This document shows positions 2,878-58,637 of a DNA stretch of 64,000 bases, piece by piece. Position 1 is the stretch's first letter. Every line of letters starts with the position of its first letter. The stretch is from Pseudooceanicola marinus (GTDB taxonomy: Bacteria > Pseudomonadota > Alphaproteobacteria > Rhodobacterales > Rhodobacteraceae), in assembly GCF_002786295.1 (NCBI RefSeq), contig NZ_PGTC01000010.1, positions 558,001 to 622,000 on the forward strand. The letters run 5' to 3'. A program made the translations under genes and the position numbers. The notes under the pieces were generated by a model. It did no database searches, was not told the origin of the DNA, and worked only from the letters and a program-made list of their open reading frames with translations.

Positions 2878-4074
2878 CCCTCGGGCGCCCAGACCCATCT
2901 GCATCAACACCTTGCGCACGGGTGCTGCGGAATAGAGCGCGTTCAGCCCGGCGGCGCGCAGGTCGCGCAGGGGCTGGGCCGAGATCTGGCTGGCGCGGTT
3001 CAGCGCGTCGATGCCGGCGGCGCGGATCTGCACCTCGCGGTGGCGGGCGCGGTGATAAGCCTCCATCATCTGCGCATCGCCCAGCCGGTCGGGGGCGGCC
3101 AGGATCAGCTCGCGCAGGGCGCGGAGGTCGCCCAGCGACATGTTCAGCCCCTGCGCCCCGATGGGCGGCACCACATGGGCGGCCTCGGCCATCAGGGCCA
3201 GGCGCTCGCCCGCCATGTGATCGGCCACCTGGGTGATGATCGGCCAGACAGACCGGCGGGTCAGCAGGCGCAGCTCTCCCAGGATGCCGACGCTGCGGCG
3301 GTTCATCTCCGCCTCGAACTCGGCGACCTCCATCGCCGCCAGGTCCTGCACCCGGGGGCCGTCCTCCATCCAGACCACGGCGGACGACGGGCGGCCGTCA
3401 TGATCGGGCAGGGGCACCAGAGTGAAGGGCCCGCCGGAACGGTGGATCTCGGTCGAGACGTTCTCATGCGGGATCGGATGCGACACCGAAAACGCCAGGG
3501 CCTTCTGCCCGTAGCGGCGGGTGGTGACGTTGATGCCCGCGGCCTGGCGCATGGGGGAATTGCGCCCGTCGGCGGCCAGCACCAGCTCGCAGCGCACGCG
3601 GCTGCCGTCGGTCAGCCCGACGCGCGCCTCGGCCTCGCGGGTGAAGAGGCTGCGGGTGCCGGTGCCGGGGCGGAACTCGACGTTGGGCAGATCCTCCAGC
3701 CGGGCCACCATCTCTCGGCGCAACAGCCAGTTGGGCAGGTTCCAACCAAAGGGCTTGTCCGAGATCTCGGTGCTGTCGAAGTCGCGCACCACGCGCGGCT
3801 CCGGCTCCGGCCCGCCGGCATCGACGATGCGCATGATGCGCAGGGGTGCCGCATGGGCGTCGAGACGGGCCCAGAGGCCTGCCTGCTCCAGCAGCTGCTG
3901 TGCCGGCTGCAGGAAGGCCGTGGTGCGCAGGTCGGCCCCTTCGGCCGCGCCGTCGGTGACCGGCGGCGTCGGGTCGAGACAGAGCACGCGGAACCCGTCC
4001 GCCCCCAGAACGGCCGCCGCGGACAGCCCCGCGACGCCCCCGCCCGAGATCACGATGTCGTATTGCGCGTCCAT
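2875..4074 (-). CDS. UbiH/UbiF/VisC family FAD-dependent monooxygenase
   Basis: The 399-residue product is a class A flavoprotein hydroxylase, probably one of the ring hydroxylases of ubiquinone synthesis. The N-terminus MDAQYDIVISGGGVAGLSAA is the Rossmann GxGxxG for FAD; LVLAADGRNS is the central DG motif; AEAAHVVPPIGAQGLNMSLGD replaces the usual GDAAH block, with Gly-Asp changed to Ala-Glu. The start at 4074 has AAGGAGG 7 bases upstream; an ATG 27 bases earlier is unlikely. Which ring position is hydroxylated cannot be read from the sequence. A small membrane-protein gene lies just upstream on the same strand. Confidence 0.88.
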   Translation of the reverse strand: MDAQYDIVISGGGVAGLSAAAVLGADGFRVLCLDPTPPVTDGAAEGADLRTTAFLQPAQQLLEQAGLWARLDAHAAPLRIMRIVDAGGPEPEPRVVRDFDSTEISDKPFGWNLPNWLLRREMVARLEDLPNVEFRPGTGTRSLFTREAEARVGLTDGSRVRCELVLAADGRNSPMRQAAGINVTTRRYGQKALAFSVSHPIPHENVSTEIHRSGGPFTLVPLPDHDGRPSSAVVWMEDGPRVQDLAAMEVAEFEAEMNRRSVGILGELRLLTRRSVWPIITQVADHMAGERLALMAEAAHVVPPIGAQGLNMSLGDLRALRELILAAPDRLGDAQMMEAYHRARHREVQIRAAGIDALNRASQISAQPLRDLRAAGLNALYSAAPVRKVLMQMGLGARG

Positions 4075-4120
4075 GTCCGGCCTCCTTCTGCCGTGGTTCA
4101 ACGGGCCCTCTACGCTATTC

Positions 4121-4357
4121 CTAGCCCCGCGTCAGCAGGATCAGGATCACGAACATCACCGGCACCGAGGCCAGGGCTGTCAGCCCGAGGGCCACAAGGC
4201 CCCAGGTTTTCACCGCCAGGATCAGGGCGGTCACGGCGATAAGGGCGGCATAGCCGATATTGCCACGGAAATCCCGCTCCAGATCGCGGATGATCCAGCC
4301 CAGCACGGGCACGAAATGGTAGGGTCGCCGGGGACCGGCGGCGCTGATGTCAGTCAT
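4121..4357 (-). CDS. Small membrane protein of unknown function
   Basis: The product has 78 residues. Residues about 33-53 (IGYAALIAVTALILAVKTWG) and 55-76 (ALGLTALASVPVMFVILILL) form two hydrophobic segments, preceded by a soluble stretch of about 30 residues. No known domain was recognised. It stands 46 bases upstream of the UbiH-like gene on the same strand and may be cotranscribed with it. Confidence 0.65.
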   Translation of the reverse strand: MTDISAAGPRRPYHFVPVLGWIIRDLERDFRGNIGYAALIAVTALILAVKTWGLVALGLTALASVPVMFVILILLTRG

Positions 4358-4429
4358 GGGTGTCCTCGCGTTTCCTGTCCCCTTCAGATGGGGGCAAAGG
4401 GCGCCGGAGGCAAAGCGACATCCTGCCGC

Positions 4430-5074
4430 TCATAGCAGGGATTTCAGGAACCCGCCCAGGTTGTCGGTATGGAAATGCACATGCTCGGCCTCGTGGGCCT
4501 CGGGGGCGACATGAACACAGCGCAGCCCCATGGCATGGGGCACGGCCAGGTTGCGCGGATCATCCTCGAACATGGCGCCGCGGGTCTGGTCGAATCCGTC
4601 GGTGCCGAAAACCGTGTCGAAGGCCGCGCGGTCGGGCTTCGGGTGGAAGCCCGCATGTTCCACCCCGTAGACCGCGTCAAACAGCCCCGACAGCCCGCGC
4701 GCTGCCAACACCCGTTCCGCATAGGGCGCGGTGCCGTTGGTGAAGACGATCTTGCGCCCCGGCAGGGCGCGGATGTGAGCGGCCAGCTCGGGGTCGTGCT
4801 CCAGGTGGTCCATGTTGATCTCGTGCACATGGGACAGGTAGGGGCCCGGGTCGACGTCATGCAGGCGCATCAGTCCGGCCAGCGTCGTGCCATGCTCGCG
4901 CCAGTAAAGGGCACGCAGCCGGTCGGCCTCGGCCCGGTCGACGCCAAGCGCCTCCATCACCCAGTTGGTCATCCGCACCTCGATCTGATCGAAGAGCCGC
5001 GCCTCGGGCGGGTAAAGGGTATTGTCCAGGTCGAAGACCCAGGTGGTGACGTGATCGAAGTGAGGCTTTGGCAT
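4430..5074 (-). CDS. Pyrimidine 5'-nucleotidase-type HAD hydrolase
   Basis: The 214-residue product is a HAD-superfamily phosphatase of the SDT1/PHM8-like group, which removes phosphate from pyrimidine nucleoside monophosphates. Motif I is VFDLDNTLYP with the two catalytic Asp; motif II is the Thr in KIVFTNGT; motif III is the Lys in FHPKPDRAAF; motif IV is AMFEDDPRNL. The cap is the alpha-helical C1 type between motifs I and II. It acts in the cytoplasm. The substrate is inferred from family resemblance. Confidence 0.85.
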   Translation of the reverse strand: MPKPHFDHVTTWVFDLDNTLYPPEARLFDQIEVRMTNWVMEALGVDRAEADRLRALYWREHGTTLAGLMRLHDVDPGPYLSHVHEINMDHLEHDPELAAHIRALPGRKIVFTNGTAPYAERVLAARGLSGLFDAVYGVEHAGFHPKPDRAAFDTVFGTDGFDQTRGAMFEDDPRNLAVPHAMGLRCVHVAPEAHEAEHVHFHTDNLGGFLKSLL

Positions 5075-49544: not shown

Positions 49545-50624
49545 TCACAACGAAAACCCCTTGATCGCCTCCATCGCTGCCGAGGCCATGCGTCTCCGGT
49601 CTGCGCGGTGCGTATAGATGGCCGAGGTCGCCGGCTGCGTGTGCGCCATCACCGCCATGATCTGGTGCTGGGTGGCCCCGGCTTCTGCCAGGATCTCGCC
49701 CATGGCCTTGCGTAGCCCGTGCTGGCTTCGGTTCTCCAGGCCGGCGGCCTTGACCCACCTGCGGACCCGCTCGTGAAGGGCGGCGGTTGAGCGGTAGGCG
49801 CGACCGTGTTCGCTGAGGATATAGGCTGGGCCTTCTGTGTCGGTCGCGCGTAGCTCGGCCAGGAGCTGGGGGGCGATCGGGACGGAAACGAAGGCAGAGC
49901 CCTTCTTCTGGGGTTGCCAGTCTAGGAAGACCACCCCGTCGCGTATGACCTCATGTTGACGGCCGAGGGTGCGCGCGTCGGAGATCCTGCAGGCGGTGAA
50001 CATGGCCAGGAAGAGCCACCGGCGCGCCGTGGTGCCTTCGGGGTGGGCGTCAAGGAAGGCGCGCACATCGCTGCTGCTCCAGGGCACGGCGCCGCCACGG
50101 CTACGGTGGACGCGGGCGATGCCCGCGCAGGGGTTTCGGGTGGCGCGGCCGCGCGTGATGGCCCATTTGTAGGCGGCGCTCAGCGCCTTGCGCGAGTTGT
50201 CCGCCTGGGCCGTGGCCTCGCCCCACTGGTCGATGATGTGGTGGATCCCGGCGGGCGGCAGGTCATGGTGCAGATCGCCCATGCGTTCGCCTTCCGGGTC
50301 CTTCATCTCGCAAACCTTACCGAAGAGGCTGCGGCGCTGCTTCAGGGTCATGGAGGAGGCGTTGCCGGCCTGCACCTGCGCGTCCAGCCAGATCAGGTAG
50401 TCGCGCACCAGCTCGTCCAGGGAGTGGCGCGCGACCGGCTTCAGCGGCGTCTGCTCGACGGTCTGGCCGGCCCGGGCGGCATAATAGTGTTCGGTGAAGG
50501 CCGGGTCGTCAGGCCCCACCGGGATGCGTATCCGCTTCCTGGGGTTGCCCTCGACCCGGACCCGATGGCGTAGCTCGCCCGATTTCATCCGTTCCGGCAC
50601 ATAGCCGGGAAACTTCACTTTCAT
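49545..50624 (-). CDS. int: Tyrosine-type phage integrase
   Basis: The 359-residue recombinase carries Arg213 in FTACRISDARTL, His302 and Arg305 in QHGLRKAMG, His328 in VMAHTQP and the nucleophile Tyr337 in SAIYTHR. The N-terminal SAM-like core-binding domain covers about 65-165. It integrates the prophage by site-specific recombination, probably at tRNA-Thr to its left, though this is inferred. The ATG at 50624 overlaps the stop of the upstream mini-gene (TGATG). Confidence 0.95.
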   Translation of the reverse strand: MKVKFPGYVPERMKSGELRHRVRVEGNPRKRIRIPVGPDDPAFTEHYYAARAGQTVEQTPLKPVARHSLDELVRDYLIWLDAQVQAGNASSMTLKQRRSLFGKVCEMKDPEGERMGDLHHDLPPAGIHHIIDQWGEATAQADNSRKALSAAYKWAITRGRATRNPCAGIARVHRSRGGAVPWSSSDVRAFLDAHPEGTTARRWLFLAMFTACRISDARTLGRQHEVIRDGVVFLDWQPQKKGSAFVSVPIAPQLLAELRATDTEGPAYILSEHGRAYRSTAALHERVRRWVKAAGLENRSQHGLRKAMGEILAEAGATQHQIMAVMAHTQPATSAIYTHRADRRRMASAAMEAIKGFSL

Positions 50625-50818
50625 CACTGGGCCCGTGTCTGACCGAATTTCCTCGGCTCACCTTGCGCGACCGGCGCCGGCCGGTCACGGGGCTGGAGGG
50701 TTTCGACGGAGAAGCTGCCGTCGGCGGCAACCTGGACGGCGCCAGGCTGAAGGCCCCGCGCGAGCATCGCGTCGAGGACGTTCTTCACGGCAGCGGCGGA
50801 GGGTTTCGCGCGGGCCAT
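50624..50818 (-). CDS. Small phage protein upstream of integrase
   Basis: The 64-residue basic protein begins MARAKPSAAAVKNVLDAMLA and ends RKFGQTRAQ. It has an N-terminal helix and a short beta-type segment (AVQVAADGSFSVETL). Its position just before int, with overlapping stop and start, is that of many excisionase or Int-accessory proteins, but no Xis motif is evident. Confidence 0.65.
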   Translation of the reverse strand: MARAKPSAAAVKNVLDAMLARGLQPGAVQVAADGSFSVETLQPRDRPAPVAQGEPRKFGQTRAQ

Positions 50819-50820
50819 TC

Positions 50821-52620
50821 TCAGCTCTCCTTCGTGGTCTGGCGCATCTCTTCGGGCAGCCAGACGTCGATAGCCTTCACCTGATCACGCGATAGGCCGA
50901 GGGCTTCCTGCACGCTGGCGTCGTTGAACAGCCCCTCCAATTCCTTCGCGCGGTCTGCCTTCTTCAGGTCGGTGAAGCGTTTCAGCTCTTCGCCCTCGGC
51001 GCCGGTCAGCTCTGCCCAGATCGCCACCTGCATGTCAGGCCGGACCCGGCCGAAGTAGTTGGCGGCGTCGGGCGTCCAGATTTTGCGGATCAGATGCTGC
51101 GCGTTTACGTGGGCGGCGAGGGCAGCGGGGAAGGCGGAATTGGTCACACCGTGCGCGGTGCGGGCGAGGCCGCGGGCCAACACCTGGTTGCGGTGCTTCT
51201 TTCCCTGCTCGCGGAAGGCGGTGAAAGCGTCCCAGGTGCCGGCGGCTCTGTGGTCGACGCTAGGGGGCGGCAGGCGCGCATCCAGGTGGAAGCCGCTGTC
51301 GCGCTCAGGCTGGATCACAGGGGCGGCCAGGGTGACGCCGAGGCCGCCGGCATAGGAGGGCAGGTTGGTCTCCATCTGCCAGGCCAGCATGTCCAGCAGG
51401 AGTTCGGTCTGGTCGATCAGTGCGACCTGCAGGGCGGCGTGGGCGATGCGGCGCAGGTCGTCCTGGGCGTTCTGGGGTAGGGCGGGTTTCGTGGTACTGC
51501 TGCCCTCGGCGCCGGCATTGCTGGACCGCTTGCGGGCTTTCTGCGCGAAGGCGCGCTCCACAACCAGTTCACCGGCCAGGTTCACGTAGGTGATGATGCC
51601 AGCGCCTTCGCGTTGCTCCTCGGTGAAGTCGCCGACCTGACGGGCGGTCAGCGCCTCGATCTGCTGACGGTCTTCCTCGCTGCGGTCCTTCCAGGGCATG
51701 GCCTCCAGGCGCTCCAGTTCGGCGGCATCGCCTTCGGGCAGTTCGACGCTGGGCGCGGTGATGCGGTCGAACTTCTCGGTCAGGCTCCAGGGGGTATAGG
51801 GCTCGGGGCTGGGTTCCGCCCAGCTCCAGCCCCCCTCGGCGCGAAGGCGCTCGGTCTCGGCGATCAGTTTCTCCGTCCACAGCTCATCCAGCAGGGCTGC
51901 ATCCTCCAGAAAGGCGTCCTCGGTGAAGAGGTCGCGGGAGATCCGGCCGCCGCTCGCCTCGTAGTCGGCCAGGCCGAGGAAGACAGCGCGGCGGTCGCTG
52001 GCCGGAACGGCGGCCGAGGTCAGCTCAGCGCGGATCTGCGCGGCGGAAAGGTGGCGGGCGGCTGCGGTCTCGGCCAGGGCGGTCTGGCGTTCGGGATTTT
52101 CGGTCAGGCACAGGGCCTCGGCGGCCGATAGACCGATGCGGTCGGCGGCCAGCAGGTCCAGGACCTCGGCGGGCAGCCCGGCCAGCTTCAGCCGCTGGCG
52201 GACGTGACGCTCGGTCTTGGCGAAGGCGCGGGCGATGCTCTCGACCGGGACACCATGGGCGGCTTGCTGGCCATAGGCGCGGATCTCCTCGGCCGGGTGC
52301 AGGGCGGCGTGGGTGACGTTCTCGGCCAGAGCCCAGGCGCGGGCAGTGGTCTCATTCGGGGCGATTTGCACCGGGATCAGCGGCATCTCGGCGCCCTCGG
52401 AGGCCAGCAGCTTCAGCCCGCGCAGCCGGCGCCCGCCCGCGACAATGCCGATGCGCCCGTCCTCCTCGATGCCGCAGAGGTTCTGCAGCAGCCCGGCCGA
52501 GGCCAGCGATTGCGCCATGGCCCTGATGTCCTCGTCCGGGACGCTCTGCCGGGGGTTCAGGGGGTGCAGGTACAGCTGCTGGAGCGGCACCATGCGGATG
52601 GTCTGGGACTGATCGGTCAT
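50821..52620 (-). CDS. ParB-like nuclease domain protein
   Basis: The 599-residue phage-borne protein has an N-terminal ParB/Spo0J/RepB domain (residues about 8-100; PLNPRQSVPDEDIRAMAQSL, VAGGRRLRGLKLLAS with Gly in place of the usual Glu of GERR). A helix-turn-helix follows (IARAFAKTERHVRQRLKLAG). The remaining 400 residues are a helical phage-specific extension. Such proteins are common in Rhodobacterales prophages and plasmids and may take part in partition or regulation. It ends 2 bases before the 64-residue gene. Confidence 0.9.
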   Translation of the reverse strand: MTDQSQTIRMVPLQQLYLHPLNPRQSVPDEDIRAMAQSLASAGLLQNLCGIEEDGRIGIVAGGRRLRGLKLLASEGAEMPLIPVQIAPNETTARAWALAENVTHAALHPAEEIRAYGQQAAHGVPVESIARAFAKTERHVRQRLKLAGLPAEVLDLLAADRIGLSAAEALCLTENPERQTALAETAAARHLSAAQIRAELTSAAVPASDRRAVFLGLADYEASGGRISRDLFTEDAFLEDAALLDELWTEKLIAETERLRAEGGWSWAEPSPEPYTPWSLTEKFDRITAPSVELPEGDAAELERLEAMPWKDRSEEDRQQIEALTARQVGDFTEEQREGAGIITYVNLAGELVVERAFAQKARKRSSNAGAEGSSTTKPALPQNAQDDLRRIAHAALQVALIDQTELLLDMLAWQMETNLPSYAGGLGVTLAAPVIQPERDSGFHLDARLPPPSVDHRAAGTWDAFTAFREQGKKHRNQVLARGLARTAHGVTNSAFPAALAAHVNAQHLIRKIWTPDAANYFGRVRPDMQVAIWAELTGAEGEELKRFTDLKKADRAKELEGLFNDASVQEALGLSRDQVKAIDVWLPEEMRQTTKES

Positions 52621-52760
52621 TTCTGGGTCTCTTGCTGAGGGATCGCGGCCGGGGGCGCGAAGGGGGCGCCGGCCAGCCAGGCGAGCGAGGCCGTGGCCAG
52701 CGTCCAGCCGGTGGCGACGGCGGCGAGGAAGGGCAAGCTGCCGAGGCTGAGCGCGCTCAT
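52617..52760 (-). CDS. 47-residue hydrophobic phage mini-protein
   Basis: This short gene reads MSALSLGSLPFLAAVATGWT and ends PQQETQK; residues about 5-32 form one membrane segment. Its ATG overlaps the upstream gene's stop (ATGA) and its TGA overlaps the ParB-like start (ATGA), so it is translationally coupled on both sides. That strict spacing supports it as a real gene despite its size. The function is unknown; an inner-membrane phage accessory protein is possible. Confidence 0.65.
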   Translation of the reverse strand: MSALSLGSLPFLAAVATGWTLATASLAWLAGAPFAPPAAIPQQETQK

Positions 52761-52969
52761 GCGCCGCCCCTCCGCTCGATGATTTCGCGGACCTTCAGGC
52801 GGGTGCGCCCGGTGATCTCGATGACCTGGGCCATGTCAGAGCTGGCCGGGCGGGTCAGGTGCTGCGGGGCGAGCCGGGCCAGCCGGTCAGGTGCGATCGG
52901 TTTGCCTTGCGCGGCCTTCCGCGCGGCCCAGTCGGCCGCGATCCGTGCGCTTTGAGCAGGGGTAAGCAT
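52757..52969 (-). CDS. Small phage DNA-binding-like protein, first gene of the int operon
   Basis: The 70-residue basic protein begins MLTPAQSARIAADWAARKAA and ends KVREIIERRGGA. It is helical and Arg/Lys-rich. GGAGGCAAG lies before the ATG, which stands just downstream of the first operator (53007-53021). It starts a five-gene leftward operon ending in int. The function is unknown. Confidence 0.7.
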   Translation of the reverse strand: MLTPAQSARIAADWAARKAAQGKPIAPDRLARLAPQHLTRPASSDMAQVIEITGRTRLKVREIIERRGGA

Positions 52970-53006
52970 GTCTTGCCTCCATCGGGTTGATGGGGGTGGA
53001 CCATAC

Positions 53007-53021
53007 TACGCAAAATGCGTA
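53007..53021. promoter_or_regulatory. Phage operator 1 (perfect inverted repeat)
   Basis: TACGCA-AAA-TGCGTA is a perfect inverted repeat. On the minus strand it lies between a possible -35 TTGCGA and a -10 TATGGT in front of the leftward operon, so a bound repressor would block that promoter. Confidence 0.7.
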
Positions 53022-53036
53022 TCGCAAGATGTAAAC

Positions 53037-53051
53037 TTCGCAATGTGCGTA
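53037..53051. promoter_or_regulatory. Phage operator 2
   Basis: TTCGCA-ATG-TGCGTA matches operator 1 at 11 of 12 half-site positions and is centred 30 bases from it, about three helical turns. Confidence 0.6.
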
Positions 53052-53133
53052 TTTTACCCTTCGGTCATCAGCTTTGGCTTGCGGAACGTAAGGGGAACAT
53101 TCTAGACGTGTAGAGGAAGGGAGACACAAGGCC

Positions 53134-53304
53134 ATGGACGATTCGCTGCGCTTGGAGTTGCTTAAACTTGCGCGAAAGCGGTCCGGGCTGTCTTTGGATT
53201 TGTGGGAAGAGCTGACCGAGGGTCTGGATCAGAGATCCTTGGAGATCCTGGTCGGGAGATCGTCTGTCTTTCCGAAGTACAGAAACTCAAGCGGCAAGCT
53301 ATAG
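53134..53304 (+). CDS. Doubtful 56-residue open frame
   Basis: An ATG preceded by AGGAAGGGAG opens a 56-residue frame starting MDDSLRLELLKLARKRSGLS. It overlaps the end of the repressor gene in antisense by 76 bases and has no recognisable domain. The good ribosome binding site is the only support. Confidence 0.25.
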   Translation: MDDSLRLELLKLARKRSGLSLDLWEELTEGLDQRSLEILVGRSSVFPKYRNSSGKL

Positions 53305-53498
53305 GTTTTGCGAAGTTTCTTTGCGCTCTGCAGAGATAGGTCCCGCGTACCGTTCTCGAAGGGGCCATAGGTCTGCATCGTGATGCCGGCGCGTTCGGCG
53401 AACTCTTTTTTTCCAAGGCCCAAAACCTCACGAACGCGCTTCAGGCGCGCGGCGACAGCTTCTCTCTTGTCTTCGAGTTCTTCAAGCATGACTGGCAT
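53229..53498 (-). CDS. XRE-family phage repressor (CI-like, short)
   Basis: The 89-residue protein consists almost entirely of an XRE helix-turn-helix (RLKRVREVLGLGKKEFAERA; GITMQTYGPFENGTRDLSL). It has no C-terminal LexA-like protease, so induction cannot depend on self-cleavage. It lies between two pairs of related operators and is divergent from a Cro-like gene, the arrangement of a lambdoid immunity region. GAGGG before 53498 supports that start; the frame extends 33 bases further upstream. Confidence 0.85.
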   Translation of the reverse strand: MPVMLEELEDKREAVAARLKRVREVLGLGKKEFAERAGITMQTYGPFENGTRDLSLQSAKKLRKTYSLPLEFLYFGKTDDLPTRISKDL

Positions 53499-53524
53499 TC
53501 TACTAGCCCTCATGTTGGCCGCAC

Positions 53525-53539
53525 TGAGCAATTTGCGTA
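53525..53539. promoter_or_regulatory. Phage operator 3
   Basis: TGAGCA-ATT-TGCGTA keeps the right half-site TGCGTA with a degenerate left half. It lies between the divergent repressor and Cro-like genes. Confidence 0.5.
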
Positions 53540-53548
53540 TTTATAAAC

Positions 53549-53563
53549 TCCGCGTATTGCGTA
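53549..53563. promoter_or_regulatory. Phage operator 4
   Basis: TCCGCG-TAT-TGCGTA has the same right half-site, 24 bases from operator 3. A TATAAA stretch at 53542-53547 lies between the two and could serve as a -10 element. Confidence 0.5.
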
Positions 53564-53577
53564 GTAGTATCGCGCCT

Positions 53578-53835
53578 ATGGCTAGGCACTTTGTGACAGT
53601 TCTGGACTTCGTGACCTTCGTTGGTCGAGCCCGCTTTGAGCGCGAGCTCGGGCACTCCCAACAGGTCATCAGCCGGGCCGTCTCGACCAACCGGATGCCT
53701 GCGCACTGGTATTTTGCCTGCCGCGACTGGTGTCGCGAGATGGGCATCACGGTGCCGGAACACCTGTTCCGTCAGTGCCAGAGGCCCAACAGGGCGAACA
53801 GTAAGCGGAATGCGAATTTTGGTGATGCGGCATGA
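53578..53835 (+). CDS. Cro-like small DNA-binding protein
   Basis: The 85-residue basic protein begins MARHFVTVLDFVTFVGRARF and has a compact helix-turn-helix (ELGHSQQVISRAVSTNRMPA), like YdaS/Cro-type proteins. It is divergent from the repressor and starts the rightward early operon. There is no clear ribosome binding site, so the message may be leaderless. A role in the lytic switch is inferred from its place. Confidence 0.7.
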   Translation: MARHFVTVLDFVTFVGRARFERELGHSQQVISRAVSTNRMPAHWYFACRDWCREMGITVPEHLFRQCQRPNRANSKRNANFGDAA

Positions 53836-53937
53836 CACGATCTGACAGGCTCTTCGGCGGCTTCTTCCATCCGGTGACGTGCATTCTTCGCCCGGTCAGC
53901 GGTTCCGCACCAGCTAAACGGGCAGGGGTCCATTCAC

Positions 53938-54396
53938 ATGCGTAATCACCCCTATGGAACGATCCAGGAGGCGGTTCAGTCGAGCTACCGCGCCTCGGGC
54001 CATACCAATGAGGAAATCGCCGAGCTGCTCGGGGTCCGGGGATCAACGATTTCCTACGGCGCCGAAATGAGCGAGGCGCGGCCGGGCGGGCTCGGGGTGA
54101 ACTACCTCCACCGTCTCGGCCGAATGCGCCCCGAGGCGGCCGTGCCGATCGCCCAGCACTTCGCGCGCCTGGGGGCCGGTGTGTTCCAGCCGGTGCAGCT
54201 GCCGGCCGGGGTGACCAGCCTTTTCGCCCATTGCGGCACCGTCGCGAAGGAATGCGGCGAGGCCCAGGCGGCGGCCCTGCGCGCGGCCGAGATGGCCAGC
54301 GCGGATGCCTGCGAGGCCGCAGAGCGCGAGATCGCCGAGGCGGTCGAGGCGCTGCTGCGCGCCCGGGCCATGATCCGTGATCAGGGGGCCGCATGA
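53938..54396 (+). CDS. Phage early protein with helix-turn-helix (CII-like position)
   Basis: The 152-residue protein has a helix-turn-helix near the N-terminus (HTNEEIAELLGVRGSTISYG) and an Ala/Glu-rich helical second half (AAEREIAEAVEALLRARAMI). Its place after the Cro-like gene is that of CII-type activators, but no family was recognised. Its stop overlaps the next start (ATGA). Confidence 0.7.
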   Translation: MRNHPYGTIQEAVQSSYRASGHTNEEIAELLGVRGSTISYGAEMSEARPGGLGVNYLHRLGRMRPEAAVPIAQHFARLGAGVFQPVQLPAGVTSLFAHCGTVAKECGEAQAAALRAAEMASADACEAAEREIAEAVEALLRARAMIRDQGAA

Positions 54397-54704
54397 CCCG
54401 TTTCAACAGCTCTCCCCGTCCCGATCCGCAGGTCTGTGCGGCGGGACCGACTGGTGCGGGGGGATCATGTCCCTCGGTCCCTCCGCGCCCCTTTTCCCGG
54501 GAGAGCCGGGAAGATCCGACCGCGATTGAGAACGTGCACACGCTCTGCCGGCGCCTCGGGCGCGGGCACTGCGCCTGTGCCGCCCATGGCCGCGAGGCCT
54601 GCAGGGATCTGACTGCGCTCCTGGCGCGCTTCGGCTCGGTCGAGGCCGCGCAGGAAGCGGAACTGCAACGACTGGAGAGACTGGCCCGCAACGCGCGGAC
54701 CTGA
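54393..54704 (+). CDS. Phage hypothetical protein, Cys-rich
   Basis: The 103-residue product has an unordered Pro/Ser-rich first half and a helical second half with several Cys and His (LCRRLGRGHCACAAHGREAC), which could bind a metal. It is coupled to the preceding gene by an ATGA overlap. No known domain is recognised. Confidence 0.6.
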   Translation: MTRFNSSPRPDPQVCAAGPTGAGGSCPSVPPRPFSRESREDPTAIENVHTLCRRLGRGHCACAAHGREACRDLTALLARFGSVEAAQEAELQRLERLARNART

Positions 54705-54746
54705 CGAGACCCCGGGCCAACCGGGACAGACCTGGAGGACAGGAGC

Positions 54747-54821
54747 ATGACGAAGACACCCAGCCGAGGTCGGAGGTTCCGGCCACGGGCTGACACCCTG
54801 CACCCTGGGAGGGCGCGATGA
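54747..54821 (+). CDS. Possible 24-residue leader peptide
   Basis: GGAGGACAGGAG precedes an ATG that opens a 24-codon frame starting MTKTPSRGRRFRPRAD and ending RAR. Its TGA overlaps the ATG of the replication gene (ATGA). It may serve as a coupling leader for that gene. The peptide itself may have no function. Confidence 0.4.
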   Translation: MTKTPSRGRRFRPRADTLHPGRAR

Positions 54822-55522
54822 GCCACAAGGCGACCAACTGGCTTTCCGGCATTCCGGCGAAGGAGTTGAGCAGCAGCGAGTTCCGCGTGCTGTTCTTCCT
54901 CTGCGACTGTCACAATCCCTCGCAGGGGTGTTTCCCGACGCAGGCCTACCTGATCGACGTCTGCGGTATTTCCAATGGGACGCTGAACAACGCGCTGAAT
55001 GGGCTGGAGGCCAAGGGGCTGATCGCCCGCCACCAGGAGCGTGACGGCCGCACCCGGCGTCAGAAACCGACCCGCTATGTCCTGGCCTTCGAGATGGGCG
55101 AGGGCGGCAAGCCGGCTCCGGGGGCTGGAGGCGGACCAGGTGGCAAACCGTCTCCGAAATCTGGAGGCGGGACGGGCAGAAAGCCGTCTCCGAAAACTGG
55201 AGCCGGAAAACAGGCTGCCCCGTCTCCAGCTTCTGGAGGCGGAGCCGTCTCCAATTTGAGGGGCGACCCGTCTCCAATTTCAGGGGGGAGCCGTCTCCAG
55301 CCCACTGGAGAGGTAACCTGTAAAGAACCTGTAATTAACCAGCGCGGGGCGCGCGGCGGGTCGAAAAATCCGCTCGTCGTGGCCGAGGCCGAGAGGGCGA
55401 TCCGGGGCTTTCGGGAGGGGCGGCAGGACGCGCTCCGGGAGCTGAAACCCTGGGTGCAGGATCACATCCGAAACGCGGACCTCCTGACGCCGGACGAGCG
55501 TCAGCGGTCGGGACTTTTCTGA
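54818..55522 (+). CDS. Phage replication initiator-like protein with embedded iterons
   Basis: The 234-residue protein has an N-terminal winged helix (residues about 10-85; ELSSSEFRVLFFLCDCHNPS, QAYLIDVCGISNGTLNNALN, GLEAKGLIARHQ), as in lambda O-type and plasmid helix-turn-helix initiators. The centre is low complexity with 12-residue repeats such as GGKPSPKSGGGT, encoded by 23-bp DNA iterons. The C-terminal part (LVVAEAERAIRGFREGRQDA) is helical. By analogy with lambda O, the N-terminal domain would bind the iterons and open the origin for a helicase. No helicase loader gene was recognised nearby. Confidence 0.75.
   Translation: MSHKATNWLSGIPAKELSSSEFRVLFFLCDCHNPSQGCFPTQAYLIDVCGISNGTLNNALNGLEAKGLIARHQERDGRTRRQKPTRYVLAFEMGEGGKPAPGAGGGPGGKPSPKSGGGTGRKPSPKTGAGKQAAPSPASGGGAVSNLRGDPSPISGGSRLQPTGEVTCKEPVINQRGARGGSKNPLVVAEAERAIRGFREGRQDALRELKPWVQDHIRNADLLTPDERQRSGLF
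55112..55313 (+). repeat. Seven 23-bp iterons, putative phage replication origin
   Basis: Copies start at 55112, 55148, 55184, 55220, 55245, 55268 and 55291. The motif is CCGTCTCC-N6/7-CTGGAGGCGG or close to it, itself a partial inverted repeat; the first copy has CCGGCTCC. The first four lie 36 bases apart, in frame; the last three are back to back at 23 bases and are read in different frames. This suggests the DNA, not the protein, is conserved. Confidence 0.75.
55314..55340. other. A+T-rich stretch next to the iterons (possible unwinding element)
   Basis: Directly after the iterons lies an A+T-rich segment with AACCTGTAA twice (55315-55323 and 55326-55334, 11 bases apart). In iteron origins such a stretch is where the helix opens. 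It stands out in this GC-rich phage. Confidence 0.5.
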
Positions 55523-55535
55523 GAGAGGAATGGCA

Positions 55536-55850
55536 ATGAGCAGCGAAGTGACGAACCAGACCGTGTCTTTCATCGGGGATCTGCCGGAGGATCCCGATCA
55601 CATCCCCCTGGCTCCGCCCTGTGGCTTCATCTGGATGCTGGGTAGCACGTTGTGCGGGACCGGGGAGGCCTTTGGCACCACCGATGTACGGGTCAGCTAC
55701 AAGGGCCGGACGATGGATTTCGTAATGACCTCTGCGGATGTGCTGTGCCTGCAGCAGCTCGTCGAAGAGGCCCTGCAGGCGATGCGCGACAGCGGGGCCG
55801 ACGACCTCGCTCCGGCGTTCCGCGAAAGGAGCGATGGCCATGCGGAGTGA
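55536..55850 (+). CDS. Phage hypothetical protein
   Basis: The 104-residue protein begins MSSEVTNQTVSFIGDLPEDP and has a helical C-terminal part (LCLQQLVEEALQAMRDSG). An ATG 6 bases earlier leaves no room for the ribosome binding site AGAGG, so the ATG at 55536 is preferred. No domain is recognised. It overlaps the next gene by 17 bases. Confidence 0.65.
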   Translation: MSSEVTNQTVSFIGDLPEDPDHIPLAPPCGFIWMLGSTLCGTGEAFGTTDVRVSYKGRTMDFVMTSADVLCLQQLVEEALQAMRDSGADDLAPAFRERSDGHAE

Positions 55851-56436
55851 TGCTGAAGGTTTCGAGACCAAGCGTGACCGGGTGCGGCGTTTGCTGCTCG
55901 ATCCGTTGGACGGCCTCGGCTTCCGCTTCCAGCGGGGTACCGATCCCGAAGAGGCGCGCAAGCGACTCGACCGGCTGGCCGATGATCTGTCCTACATGAG
56001 CGATGAGAACCTGCGGCGCCTCTTCGAGGCAATGCGCACCAAGGGTGAGGGCAAGGCGCGGGACTTCTGGCCCAGCCATGCCGCCTTCATCGCCTTGGCG
56101 CAGATCGCCCAGCCTCGACCGCTGGAGGAGATGCCCGGCTTGGCGTCCTGGTTCGGCAGTGCTGCCGGGCGGGCGGCCCTGGCCGAGGGGCGGCTGGTCG
56201 AAGAATACCGCTGGTGGTTGTCGAAGCACCGCCCGCCGATGAACCCCCAAGAGCGTCGGTTGATCGCGGACCGGGCCGGCGCGGCCCAGTCGAAGGCCGA
56301 CCGGCTGCGCGAACGGCTGGGGCTGAACCTGCCGGTGGATGCCAGCGACCGCGAGTGGCTGCATGCCTTCGACGCCCACGAAGCGGCGGCGCGGGCCCTG
56401 GTGCGGGCCGGGACCACGAAAGGGGTAGCGGCATGA
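55834..56436 (+). CDS. Phage early protein of unknown function
   Basis: The 200-residue protein is helical and rich in Arg and Glu (DRVRRLLLDPLDGLGFRFQR; ARKRLDRLADDLSYMSDENL; ADRLRERLGLNLPVDASD). AAAGGAG precedes the start. Its position after the initiator gene would suit a replication accessory protein such as a helicase loader, but no Walker motif is present. The stop overlaps the next start (ATGA). Confidence 0.65.
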   Translation: MAMRSDAEGFETKRDRVRRLLLDPLDGLGFRFQRGTDPEEARKRLDRLADDLSYMSDENLRRLFEAMRTKGEGKARDFWPSHAAFIALAQIAQPRPLEEMPGLASWFGSAAGRAALAEGRLVEEYRWWLSKHRPPMNPQERRLIADRAGAAQSKADRLRERLGLNLPVDASDREWLHAFDAHEAAARALVRAGTTKGVAA

Positions 56437-57086
56437 CCATGATGATGCGGATGACGCCGGCCCGGGCTGTCGGGCTGAAGGAGGTTTCGATCCTGGAGCT
56501 GCTGCACTGGGCCTTCCAGCGCGAGAAGATCTCGATCGAGTTCGACGACCTGCGCGCCGCGATGCCGGGCCAGCTGCCGGGCTTCGGGATGGAGTGGGTG
56601 ATGATCGAGCGCGCCCGGCTCGGGTGCCGTGTCGATGGAGGAGGGCGGTCTGATCCGCATCCCGACGCCGAAGCGGTGGCCGATGCCCTGGCGCAGCTGC
56701 CGGAGGGCGTGGGTGGTCGCCGCATGGCTCTGACCATCGCAGAACTGGCCCGAGCCGGTCAGCTCCACGGCTGGGGCTCCGGCCAGGCGCCGCAGGTGCA
56801 GCCGCGCGGCTGGCGTCAGACGAAGCACGGCCTCTTCGCCGAGACGGAAAGCTGTGGAGTGGTGCGGTATCGCAGTCGCGGTAAGGCCCGCGAGGTTGAA
56901 ACGCGCTGGTGCCCGATCAGGATCGAGAACCATCCGCGGGAAGAGGCCCGGGCGCGGCGGGCCTATCTGCTGTGGTGGGGTGCTCTGAGGGAGCTGCGGG
57001 ATACGTTCCGGCTATATGGCGGGCTGACACGGCATCAGGTTTCAGAGCAGATGCCGACCATGAAGCCATGGATCCGCAATAGCTAA
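56433..57086 (+). CDS. Phage hypothetical protein
   Basis: The 217-residue product begins MTMMMRMTPARAVGLKEVSI and ends TMKPWIRNS. A region SILELLHWAFQREKISIEFD resembles a short helical DNA-binding element; the C-terminal third has LLWWGALRELRDTFRLYGGL. It is the last gene of the coupled early operon. The function is unknown; phage antitermination-like proteins often lie at this place. Confidence 0.65.
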   Translation: MTMMMRMTPARAVGLKEVSILELLHWAFQREKISIEFDDLRAAMPGQLPGFGMEWVMIERARLGCRVDGGGRSDPHPDAEAVADALAQLPEGVGGRRMALTIAELARAGQLHGWGSGQAPQVQPRGWRQTKHGLFAETESCGVVRYRSRGKAREVETRWCPIRIENHPREEARARRAYLLWWGALRELRDTFRLYGGLTRHQVSEQMPTMKPWIRNS

Positions 57087-57230
57087 TCTATTGGCAATGC
57101 GACCCGGGAATGACCTTGATTTAGGGAGCAGCTTTTTCGTCACACTGGCCAATTTACTTGAGCGTATAGTTTACCTGATGCGCGGAAACACGCTTCTGTG
57201 ATCGTGTGAATACAAATTAAGGGACACTAA

Positions 57231-58193: not shown

Positions 58194-58637
58194 ATGAAAG
58201 GAAAGAAGCCAGCCCTCGACAATGTGGTGCCCATGAAGGGCGACAGCTACCGCCCGACGCCGCCGGCGCCGGAGTGGTTCCCGCATCCCGAGGCGGTAGA
58301 GGCCTGGGAGCACCTGGCGCCGGTGCTGATCGCCAAGAACCGCCTGGAGCCGCACCACGAAGATCTCTTCGCGGCCTATTGCGTCGCGGTCGGGGATTTC
58401 GTCCGCTTCAGCGGCGAGCTGGCGGTTCTGGGGAATTACTACGAGGTGAAGACCCGCAACGGCCTGCAGGAGAAGAAACGGGCCGCCTGGGGTCAGCGGC
58501 AGGACGCGCTGGCCACCATGCAGCGGATCGGTGCGCTTTACGGCATGTCGCCGGTAGACGAGGCGCGCCTCGGCAATGGCGGCCAGGGGTCCTTCCTGGA
58601 GGAACTGGAAAAGGCGATGCGCGGTGGTGCATCCTGA
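58194..58637 (+). CDS. Phage terminase small subunit (P27-like)
   Basis: The 147-residue protein has the P27 family layout: HPEAVEAWEHLAPVLIAKNR, LEPHHEDLFAAYCVAVGDFV and NPDxxR-like GLQEKKRAAWGQRQDALATM. It recognises the packaging site and delivers DNA to the large subunit. AAAGGAGGG is upstream of the ATG. Its end overlaps the start of the large subunit gene. Confidence 0.93.
   Translation: MKGKKPALDNVVPMKGDSYRPTPPAPEWFPHPEAVEAWEHLAPVLIAKNRLEPHHEDLFAAYCVAVGDFVRFSGELAVLGNYYEVKTRNGLQEKKRAAWGQRQDALATMQRIGALYGMSPVDEARLGNGGQGSFLEELEKAMRGGAS

Follow-up and report, generated by a model that had tools for sequence, protein, structure and literature searches.

Why should one protein-coding gene carry a run of near-identical DNA repeats that is read in three different frames? 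This question is raised by a prophage gene within a 64,000-nucleotide stretch of Pseudooceanicola marinus DNA (contig NZ_PGTC01000010.1, positions 558,001 to 622,000), which is called the window here. The gene, at window positions 54818–55522, is by profile a phage replication initiator and a member of the PF13730 phage-initiator kind, and an earlier note had proposed that its repeats form a replication origin. We consider this interpretation largely right. With a probability of roughly 0.85, the array is a phage replication origin embedded in the gene for its own initiator and bound by the winged helix of that protein. This judgement is based on comparative sequence evidence of three sorts: the anatomy of the array, selection acting on the DNA in three frames, and covariation between protein residues and repeat bases.

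Seven CCGTCTCC-type sites are located in the DNA encoding the disordered linker of the initiator (Table 1). As the earlier note had described, the first four are in frame at 36-bp steps and the last three proceed at 23-bp steps, such that the same DNA is read as AVS, PSP and SRL in frames 1, 0 and 2; a step of 25 bp joins the two groups. Its count of seven sites and their positions also hold, but a 23-mer was overstated for the last three, which are half-sites. Specifically, the pattern CCGTCTCC-N5-CTGGAGGCGG is exact in copies 2 and 4 only, copies 1 and 3 carry one mismatch each, and the last three copies (hereafter the core) fail it even when three mismatches are permitted. Sites 1–4 are imperfect 23-bp dyads, each with a right arm that matches the left arm at seven of eight positions. 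At up to three mismatches, the pattern yields seven matches in the window, of which six, counted on both strands, are within the array, against 0.25 expected. A dyad pattern, CCGTCTCC-N6-TGGAG-N-CGG with at most one mismatch, occurs in this array only across the whole 4.5-Mb genome. The A+T-rich stretch with a doubled AACCTGTAA that the note described is indeed present after the repeats (A+T of 0.58 in the 24 nucleotides from 55322), and the two copies are 11 bp apart and thus in different reading frames.

A search of 295 host-family genomes found relatives of the initiator in 37, its own included, whereas a class-wide search with the first 95 residues matched 1 of 190 genomes, the source genome itself. 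Further matches came from 54 viral loci, 23 genome contigs and 15 phage records, three of which were fetched (Rhodobacter phage RcOceanus, Labrenzia phage vB_LagS-V1 and Rhizobium phage vB_RleM_PPF1). Judging by record titles, the relatives in genome contigs are mostly from Rhodobacteraceae; among the 15 phage records the hosts are Rhodobacter, Rhizobium and Roseibium, with one faecal sample. For covariation analysis, 221 profile hits were reduced to 192 distinct genes and 155 distinct N-termini, of which 131 have a canonical labelled half-site of the form CC(3)(4)(5)T(7)(8), where the label was taken from the array alone. The selection tests used 94 distinct family genes, including that of the window. 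Individual relatives are cited by L numbers.

Half-site bases vary together with residues of the winged helix. Among the 131 distinct initiators, Arg at residue 53 accompanies G at base 5 in 93 of 93 cases, and Asn, Ile, Val, Leu or Ser accompanies C in 38 of 38. At wing residue 82, Gln occurs with G at base 3 (100/100) and Arg with A (22/22); Lys is mixed (three G, two A), and Val, Ala or His occurs with G (4/4). Residue 58 shows a similar relationship to base 8, with Arg matched to T in 11 of 13 cases and other residues to C in all 118. A tree that omitted columns 53, 54, 58 and 82 placed base changes on the same branch as residue changes in 6/6 cases for residue 53 and 8/8 for residue 82 (7/8 with residues in two groups). 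When all N-terminal columns were compared, column 53 was the best for base 5 (next 3/6) and column 82 the best for base 3 (next 4/8). A tree built without the helix and wing gave coincidences of 6/6, 5/7 and 8/9 for residues 53, 82 and 58, respectively. When tested on held-out half-sites, which had not supplied the labels, residue 53 correctly predicted base 5 in 361 of 376, and a residue other than Arg at position 58 predicted C at base 8 in 358 of 364. As correlations between sequences, the links of residue 53 to base 5 and of residue 82 to base 3 are firm, and that of residue 58 to base 8 is tentative.

Twenty-four rows were left unlabelled: ten of a CCGGAC class, six genes with canonical sites, L217, and seven with no site or a single one. 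The six canonical-site genes fit the base 5 rule by majority; L113 and L148 are free of exceptions, L241 and L077 have stray sites of the other kind, L060 has four sites in favour and two or more against, and L009 has one copy each of two variants. L113 is the isolated phage RcOceanus, in which Val53 occurs with CCGACTCC, as the rule for base 5 predicts. The CCGGAC class (L067, L114, L118, L135, L161, L162, L191, L221, L231 and L235) is diverged, with an Asp-Glu/Val-Arg helix and with repeats still at 23-bp steps. A second family initiator in the genome of the window (L002; contig C29:261455-262078, minus strand) has Arg53 and CCGTGTCC sites, and one cell thus appears to carry two different predicted origin specificities, the other being Asn53 with CCGTCTCC.

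The association between site and protein is also recovered from DNA. The pattern CCGTSTCC-N7-GGASACGG, used with no protein query, retrieved 116 loci from 2.9 million IMG/VR viral contigs, and at 84 of these the site is inside an open reading frame (ORF) that matches the winged-helix profile of the initiator family. This pattern fixed base 3 as G and base 4 as T and left base 5 free; it inflates G at base 3, yet is blind to residue 82. Because the half-site bases covary with residues of the initiator’s own winged helix, this domain very probably binds the array sites. An explanation of the link at the peptide level is unlikely because the core copies occupy three frames. A literature search, which most subscription journals lay outside, returned no account of the array or of a comparable residue–base covariation between initiator and iterons. 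The recognition code read from this covariation is what is new.

The protein also has the N-terminal winged helix noted earlier. It matches PF13730 (HTH_36, a helix-turn-helix (HTH) family; E value 1.7e-11, 44.2 bits, cut-off 25) in a Pfam scan, and seven PHROG families named ‘replication initiation’ or ‘O-like’ match it with E values of 3e-14 to 4e-6 (best 2.8e-14), phrog_270, phrog_1032 and phrog_345 among them. In an AlphaFold2 (AF2) model, both ends are confident and linker residues 104–177 mostly have a predicted local distance difference test (pLDDT) score below 50. The winged helix is modelled with a recognition helix that begins at residue 53 and with wing strands at residues 69–72 and 86–89, which places residue 82 within the wing hairpin. 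The C-terminal helices (185–199, 204–207, 211–219 and 225–231) have block-mean pLDDT values of 88–97. The array encodes linker residues 99–165, and the repeats therefore lie in the initiator ORF between domains at about residues 1–97 and 185–231, as is characteristic of an embedded origin.

Covariation of this kind argues for recognition rather than for replication, and the sites could be an operator within the gene, bound by the initiator chiefly so as to repress early transcription or set its timing, with the origin elsewhere. Upstream dyads look like dimer operators, and the best PDB sequence matches of the winged helix are PA3341 and SlyA, of the MarR/SlyA regulators. SlyA contacts bases through Ser62, Val64 and Arg65 according to an excerpt of its report (PMC4737184); with an assumed chain-numbering offset of 3, these align to initiator residues 55, 57 and 58. 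In another excerpt (PMC3737563), wing residue Arg98 of SCO3205 enters the minor groove and contacts operator base A3, and it is comparable to wing residue 82, although the two numberings are not aligned to each other. However, MarR/SlyA proteins are transcription regulators, unlike the initiator, whose family is profiled as replication initiators. Furthermore, the sites are about 290–500 bp into the gene, away from its promoter, the fixed core leads into an A+T-rich element that is constrained as DNA, and in lambda O and pSK41 Rep the origin is known to lie within the gene in this way. An operator function beside or instead of origin function is possible, but we regard a main role in transcription with the origin elsewhere as improbable.

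A much smaller chance attaches to a centromere-like partition site, which would serve the ParB-like protein encoded on the minus strand at 50821-52620. The presence of a ParB-domain gene in the same prophage and the clustering of palindromes fit this idea, but across the family the half-site tracks winged-helix residues of the initiator itself.

The array includes two kinds of site. Dyads and core were compared in 111 genes with a core triple. Together these genes have 175 upstream copies; 56 genes have two, 42 have one, 6 have three or four, and 7 have none. Right arms of the upstream copies match at 7.36 of 8 positions on average, with at least six matches in 95%. For core copies 1, 2 and 3 the corresponding values are 2.5, 3.0 and 4.6, where the background is 2.3. 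Coding does not readily explain the missing core arm because core copy 2 usually shares its reading frame with the upstream dyads. We infer that dimers bind the upstream dyads and that a head-to-tail row forms on the core. The same comparison bears on a possible role of the palindromes as RNA hairpins in the early transcript. The stretch does fold better than shuffled sequences (z of −4.2), but a right arm is missing from core copies 1 and 2, mismatches between dyad arms show no excess of sense G–U over A–C (64 versus 85 of 365), and the covariation partner is a DNA-binding helix and wing; such an RNA-level element is therefore very doubtful.

The claim that selection acts on the DNA rather than on the protein was well founded, in that the copies track DNA and not frame and that the repeat does not survive synonymous shuffles. 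A triple 8-mer repeat (at least 7/8 positions) at a lag of 23, a value derived from the window with other lags as the control, is present in 65 of the 94 genes. At control lags it is found in no gene at 13–22 or 25–35, in two genes at 24 and in seven each at 12 and 36. When codons were shuffled synonymously with the protein fixed, the observed lag-23 triple was matched in at most 2 of 200 shuffles for 67 genes, and in 2 of 5,000 for the window gene. A count of palindromes only is weak per gene (10/94 at no more than 2/200; summed, 131 versus 48). A motif-free shuffle test, based on the commonest 8-mer in about 300 nucleotides, was set aside as too weak (13/94 at 0/100, 41/94 at no more than 5). 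The last three sites have steps of 23 and 23 bp and frames 1, 0 and 2 in 99 of the 131 labelled genes. Three labelled genes have a last step of 24 and frames 1, 0 and 0, a layout found in L037 and L042, and in genes with a 24-bp step the half-site sequence is kept while its peptide changes. L113 (RcOceanus, 4001–4972) has its last two half-sites 24 bp apart, a multiple of three. Thus a few relatives (L113, L037 and L042, each with one 24-bp step) relax the 23-bp rule.

In 84 of the 94 genes, an 8-mer recurs exactly at a lag of 23. Of the ten genes that lack such a pair, five were inspected as DNA; seven of the ten form one A+T-rich group with no recognisable sites, and another is L113, with its 24-bp step. 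L024 retains the last copies with mismatches. L040 has lost them: its array ends after the first core copy and the ORF continues into sequence unlike that of relatives, so that in-frame dyads are kept and the core is absent. The earlier note had looked to relatives that keep the peptide repeat and lose the DNA pattern as evidence against it, and among the 94 genes no lag-23-negative relative keeps a P-x-P..SG.G array without the DNA repeat, subject to the partial case of L040 with its dyads but no core. A protein-level repeat, in which a low-complexity linker (GGKPSP) grew by slippage and the DNA likeness is a by-product, would suit copies 1–4, which are in frame at 36 bp with similar peptides, but is scarcely credible given a step of 23 bp that is not a multiple of three and yields AVS, PSP and SRL, a repeat destroyed by synonymous shuffles, a linker of low pLDDT, and the contradicting lag-23 test and family-wide frames 1, 0 and 2.

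Selection on the DNA extends to the sequence beyond the core. A match to AACC-N-GTAA follows the array in 79 of the 94 genes, with more than one copy in 26, at steps of 12 or 11 bp. Most occurrences are in one frame (92) and 16 are in another; in L008, L070, L073 and L075 every copy is in the other frame, and those of L070 and L075 read TSKGTSNGTGN or TSKRTSNRTGN instead of NPVREPV. Within [EN]PV, 97.4% of valine codons (n = 234) are GTA, compared with 8.5% (n = 2,759) elsewhere in the same genes, and the motif proline is CCT or CCA in 92% versus 28% elsewhere. By this codon test, rather than by any stand-alone search, AACCWGTAA is constrained at the DNA level within initiators. As a search term, doubled AACCWGTAA was rejected as unspecific, with 25 of at least 128 sites (at least 120 loci) in ORFs that match the family profile; most of the other sites, at least 103, are coincidental, being the opposite strand of FTGSFTGSF-type repeats (L120, L124, L164, L165 and similar). 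The distance from the last half-site start to the start of (T/G/A)AACC is 21 nucleotides in 77 of 111 genes, 22 in 16 and 23 in 6, and the window belongs to the 23-nucleotide group. The region 20–55 nucleotides past the last half-site start has an A+T content of 0.50–0.60, where the gene mean is 0.38 (n = 174), and an A+T-rich stretch beside the repeats is thus a family trait that embedded origins share. The seven A+T-rich relatives that have no recognisable iterons retain one AACCWGTAA copy.

Several observations weigh against an origin read by this winged helix. The core copies of the window keep only their left 8 bp, with right arms that match at 3/8, 4/8 and 3/8 positions. In the recognition code, two of 13 initiators with Arg58 are exceptions to T at base 8, and base 8 changes share a branch with changes at residue 58 in 5/8 cases compared with 6/8 for column 54, although tip concordance is 0.985 for column 58 and 0.87 for column 54. 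Held-out half-sites are looser at base 3 (Gln82 with G in 276/302, Arg82 with A in 38/56) and poor for Arg58 with T (5/12). The unlabelled L217, with Asn53, has a single site, which is of the other class. Residue 53 aligns to a SlyA position for which the excerpt cited above names no base contact. Foldseek gave no fold match to solved initiators at an E value of 0.001 or better, and comparison of lambda O with the family profile gave no detectable similarity (hhalign probability 0.4%). No helicase loader was recognisable among the initiator’s neighbours in the window by Pfam, PHROG or viral fold models. GC skew does not switch at the array. No DnaA box, TTATNCACA with at most one mismatch, occurs within 49549–57205, such that the DnaA boxes expected beside the iterons of a DnaA-dependent origin are absent.

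Taken with these points, the embedded-origin interpretation leads to a model of binding, dimer and row formation, unwinding, helicase recruitment and origin activity, all of which we infer. The winged helix, encoded in the 5′ part of the gene, would bind the CCGTCTCC half-sites in the DNA for its own linker. Recognition-helix residue 53 would read half-site base 5 and wing residue 82 base 3, and residue 58 would probably help to read base 8. The upstream dyads would suit a symmetric dimer. In the fixed core, three half-sites follow one another head to tail every 23 bp, an arrangement that would suit protomers bound cooperatively in a row. This core abuts the A+T-rich stretch with repeated AACCWGTAA, which would be the place of strand opening and to which the C-terminal domain might recruit host helicase and primase. 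Presumably a wide range of peptides can serve as linker, which leaves the DNA free to be read in any of the three frames; initiator and sites would evolve as one unit.

A broader reading, which we hold tentatively and at somewhat less than even odds, is that the whole family has a two-tier origin with a readable code. Dyads would bind initiator dimers, and the invariant three-frame 23-bp row of half-sites would bind protomers head to tail, which would push open the A+T-rich element; AACCWGTAA would be a second recognition element independent of half-site class, and specificity would be switched by concerted change of residue and base. If so, the family represents an extensive set of natural replicons that are orthogonal to one another, in which phages could switch replicon specificity by few concerted changes because protein and sites share one gene. 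Natural variation alone already provides testable residue-level rules for how a phage initiator finds its origin. The array also shows how a gene can hold binding sites in three frames because the encoded linker is free. A joint change of initiator and origin specificity without loss of replication is directly testable on natural pairs, including the two initiators of this genome.

Table 1 Features of the initiator gene, its repeat array and a neighbouring gene (window positions)
Feature	Position	Strand	Basis
Initiator gene, 234 amino acids (N-terminal winged helix, disordered linker, C-terminal helical domain)	54818..55522	+	Pfam, PHROG, AF2
Winged-helix domain, about residues 16-90	54863..55087	+	Pfam profile, AF2
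Recognition helix, residues 53-65	codons 54974-55012	+	AF2
Codon 53 (Asn), half-site base 5 partner	54974..54976	+	Covariation
Codon 58 (Asn), proposed half-site base 8 partner (weaker)	54989..54991	+	Covariation
Codon 82 (Gln, wing), half-site base 3 partner	55061..55063	+	Covariation
Dyad site 1 (CCGGCTCC variant), frame 0	55112..55134	+	
Dyad site 2, frame 0	55148..55170	+	
Dyad site 3, frame 0	55184..55206	+	
Dyad site 4, frame 0	55220..55242	+	
Core half-site repeat 1, frame 1 (AVS)	55245..55267	+	
Core half-site repeat 2, frame 0 (PSP)	55268..55290	+	
Core half-site repeat 3, frame 2 (SRL)	55291..55313	+	
AACCTGTAA motif 1, in locally A+T-rich stretch (proposed unwinding region)	55315..55323	+	
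AACCTGTAA motif 2	55326..55334	+	
C-terminal helical domain, residues 185-231, proposed replisome-recruiting part (putative role)	55370..55510	+	AF2
Next-but-one gene, 200 amino acids, candidate partner	55834..56436	+	Homologues in relatives by alignment

The prophage includes an integrase gene (49545–50627, minus strand) and a gene for a repressor-like HTH protein (53229–53531, minus strand), followed by early genes that include the initiator. The ParB-like gene (phrog_7783) lies between integrase and repressor. The sign of A–T skew changes near 54 kb (about window position 54000), where gene direction also turns. A small terminase subunit is encoded at 58194–58637, and the translations nearby and further along suggest HNH, large-terminase, portal and capsid genes. 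Homologues of the 200-residue helical protein encoded next but one to the initiator are found shortly 3′ of the initiator in L036, L039, L046 and L049 (42–82% identity), and this conserved protein is a possible replication partner. It has no Pfam match above cut-off, no PHROG family and no confident fold match among viral models. In L054, L059, L112 and L114, the gene 3′ of the initiator resembles a NusG-type antiterminator from its translation, and is annotated so in L114.

Origins inside initiator genes are already established, as in lambda O and pSK41 Rep. The likeness to lambda proposed in the earlier note holds for repeats in mid-gene beside an A+T-rich tract, which the features of the lambda record share, but this layout is not unusual in its class. 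An excerpt on lambda and Stx phages (PMC7466680) describes several initiator-binding repeats in the middle of gene O with a flanking A+T-rich tract. The four annotated iterons of lambda are in frames 0, 2, 2 and 1 at steps of 20, 24 and 23 bp, and the three-frame argument is not unique to the array because lambda iterons are also in three codon phases. Unlike lambda, the family combines dyads with a core triple of half-sites spaced by exactly 23 bp and carries AACCWGTAA as a second conserved motif, and no P-like gene was recognised. PHROG clusters named O-like match the initiator by profile, so it may be distantly related to lambda O.

Other PF13730 genes provide a second comparison. Of 29 examined from Pseudomonadota, nine have direct repeats within the gene beyond those of codon shuffles (0/40). 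Two of these (L357 and L358) belong to the family of the window initiator; in the remaining seven the repeats recur every 14, 21, 22, 44 or 45 bp, and some of these may reflect recent slippage. Foldseek weakly matched the initiator to 4pql, 4pt7 and 5kbj (E values of 0.03–0.05; ‘N-terminal domain of DNA binding protein’, ‘initiator’ and ‘Rep-DNA complex’), which we take to be RepA_N proteins. A Pfam scan of the initiator to an E value of 1 listed HTH_36 and other HTH families, with no RepA_N domain.

The pSK41 and pSK1 plasmids (RepA_N) have origin boxes centrally in rep, in DNA that encodes the linker, and deletion of the RepA_N linker still permits rescue of replication, according to excerpts of PMC5703833. 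The same excerpts describe RepA_N initiators with a winged-helix N-terminus and a C-terminal domain that contacts primase. Unlike these Gram-positive plasmids, the replicon in the window is a phage of Rhodobacteraceae. By analogy of layout, and not by detected homology to lambda O, the array would function in the manner of the origins embedded in lambda O and pSK41 Rep. The excerpts further describe a chimeric pPR9 Rep with a pfam13730 N-terminus, whose rep region supports replication; on that description, the N-terminus of this plasmid protein and the window initiator belong to the same Pfam family, PF13730.
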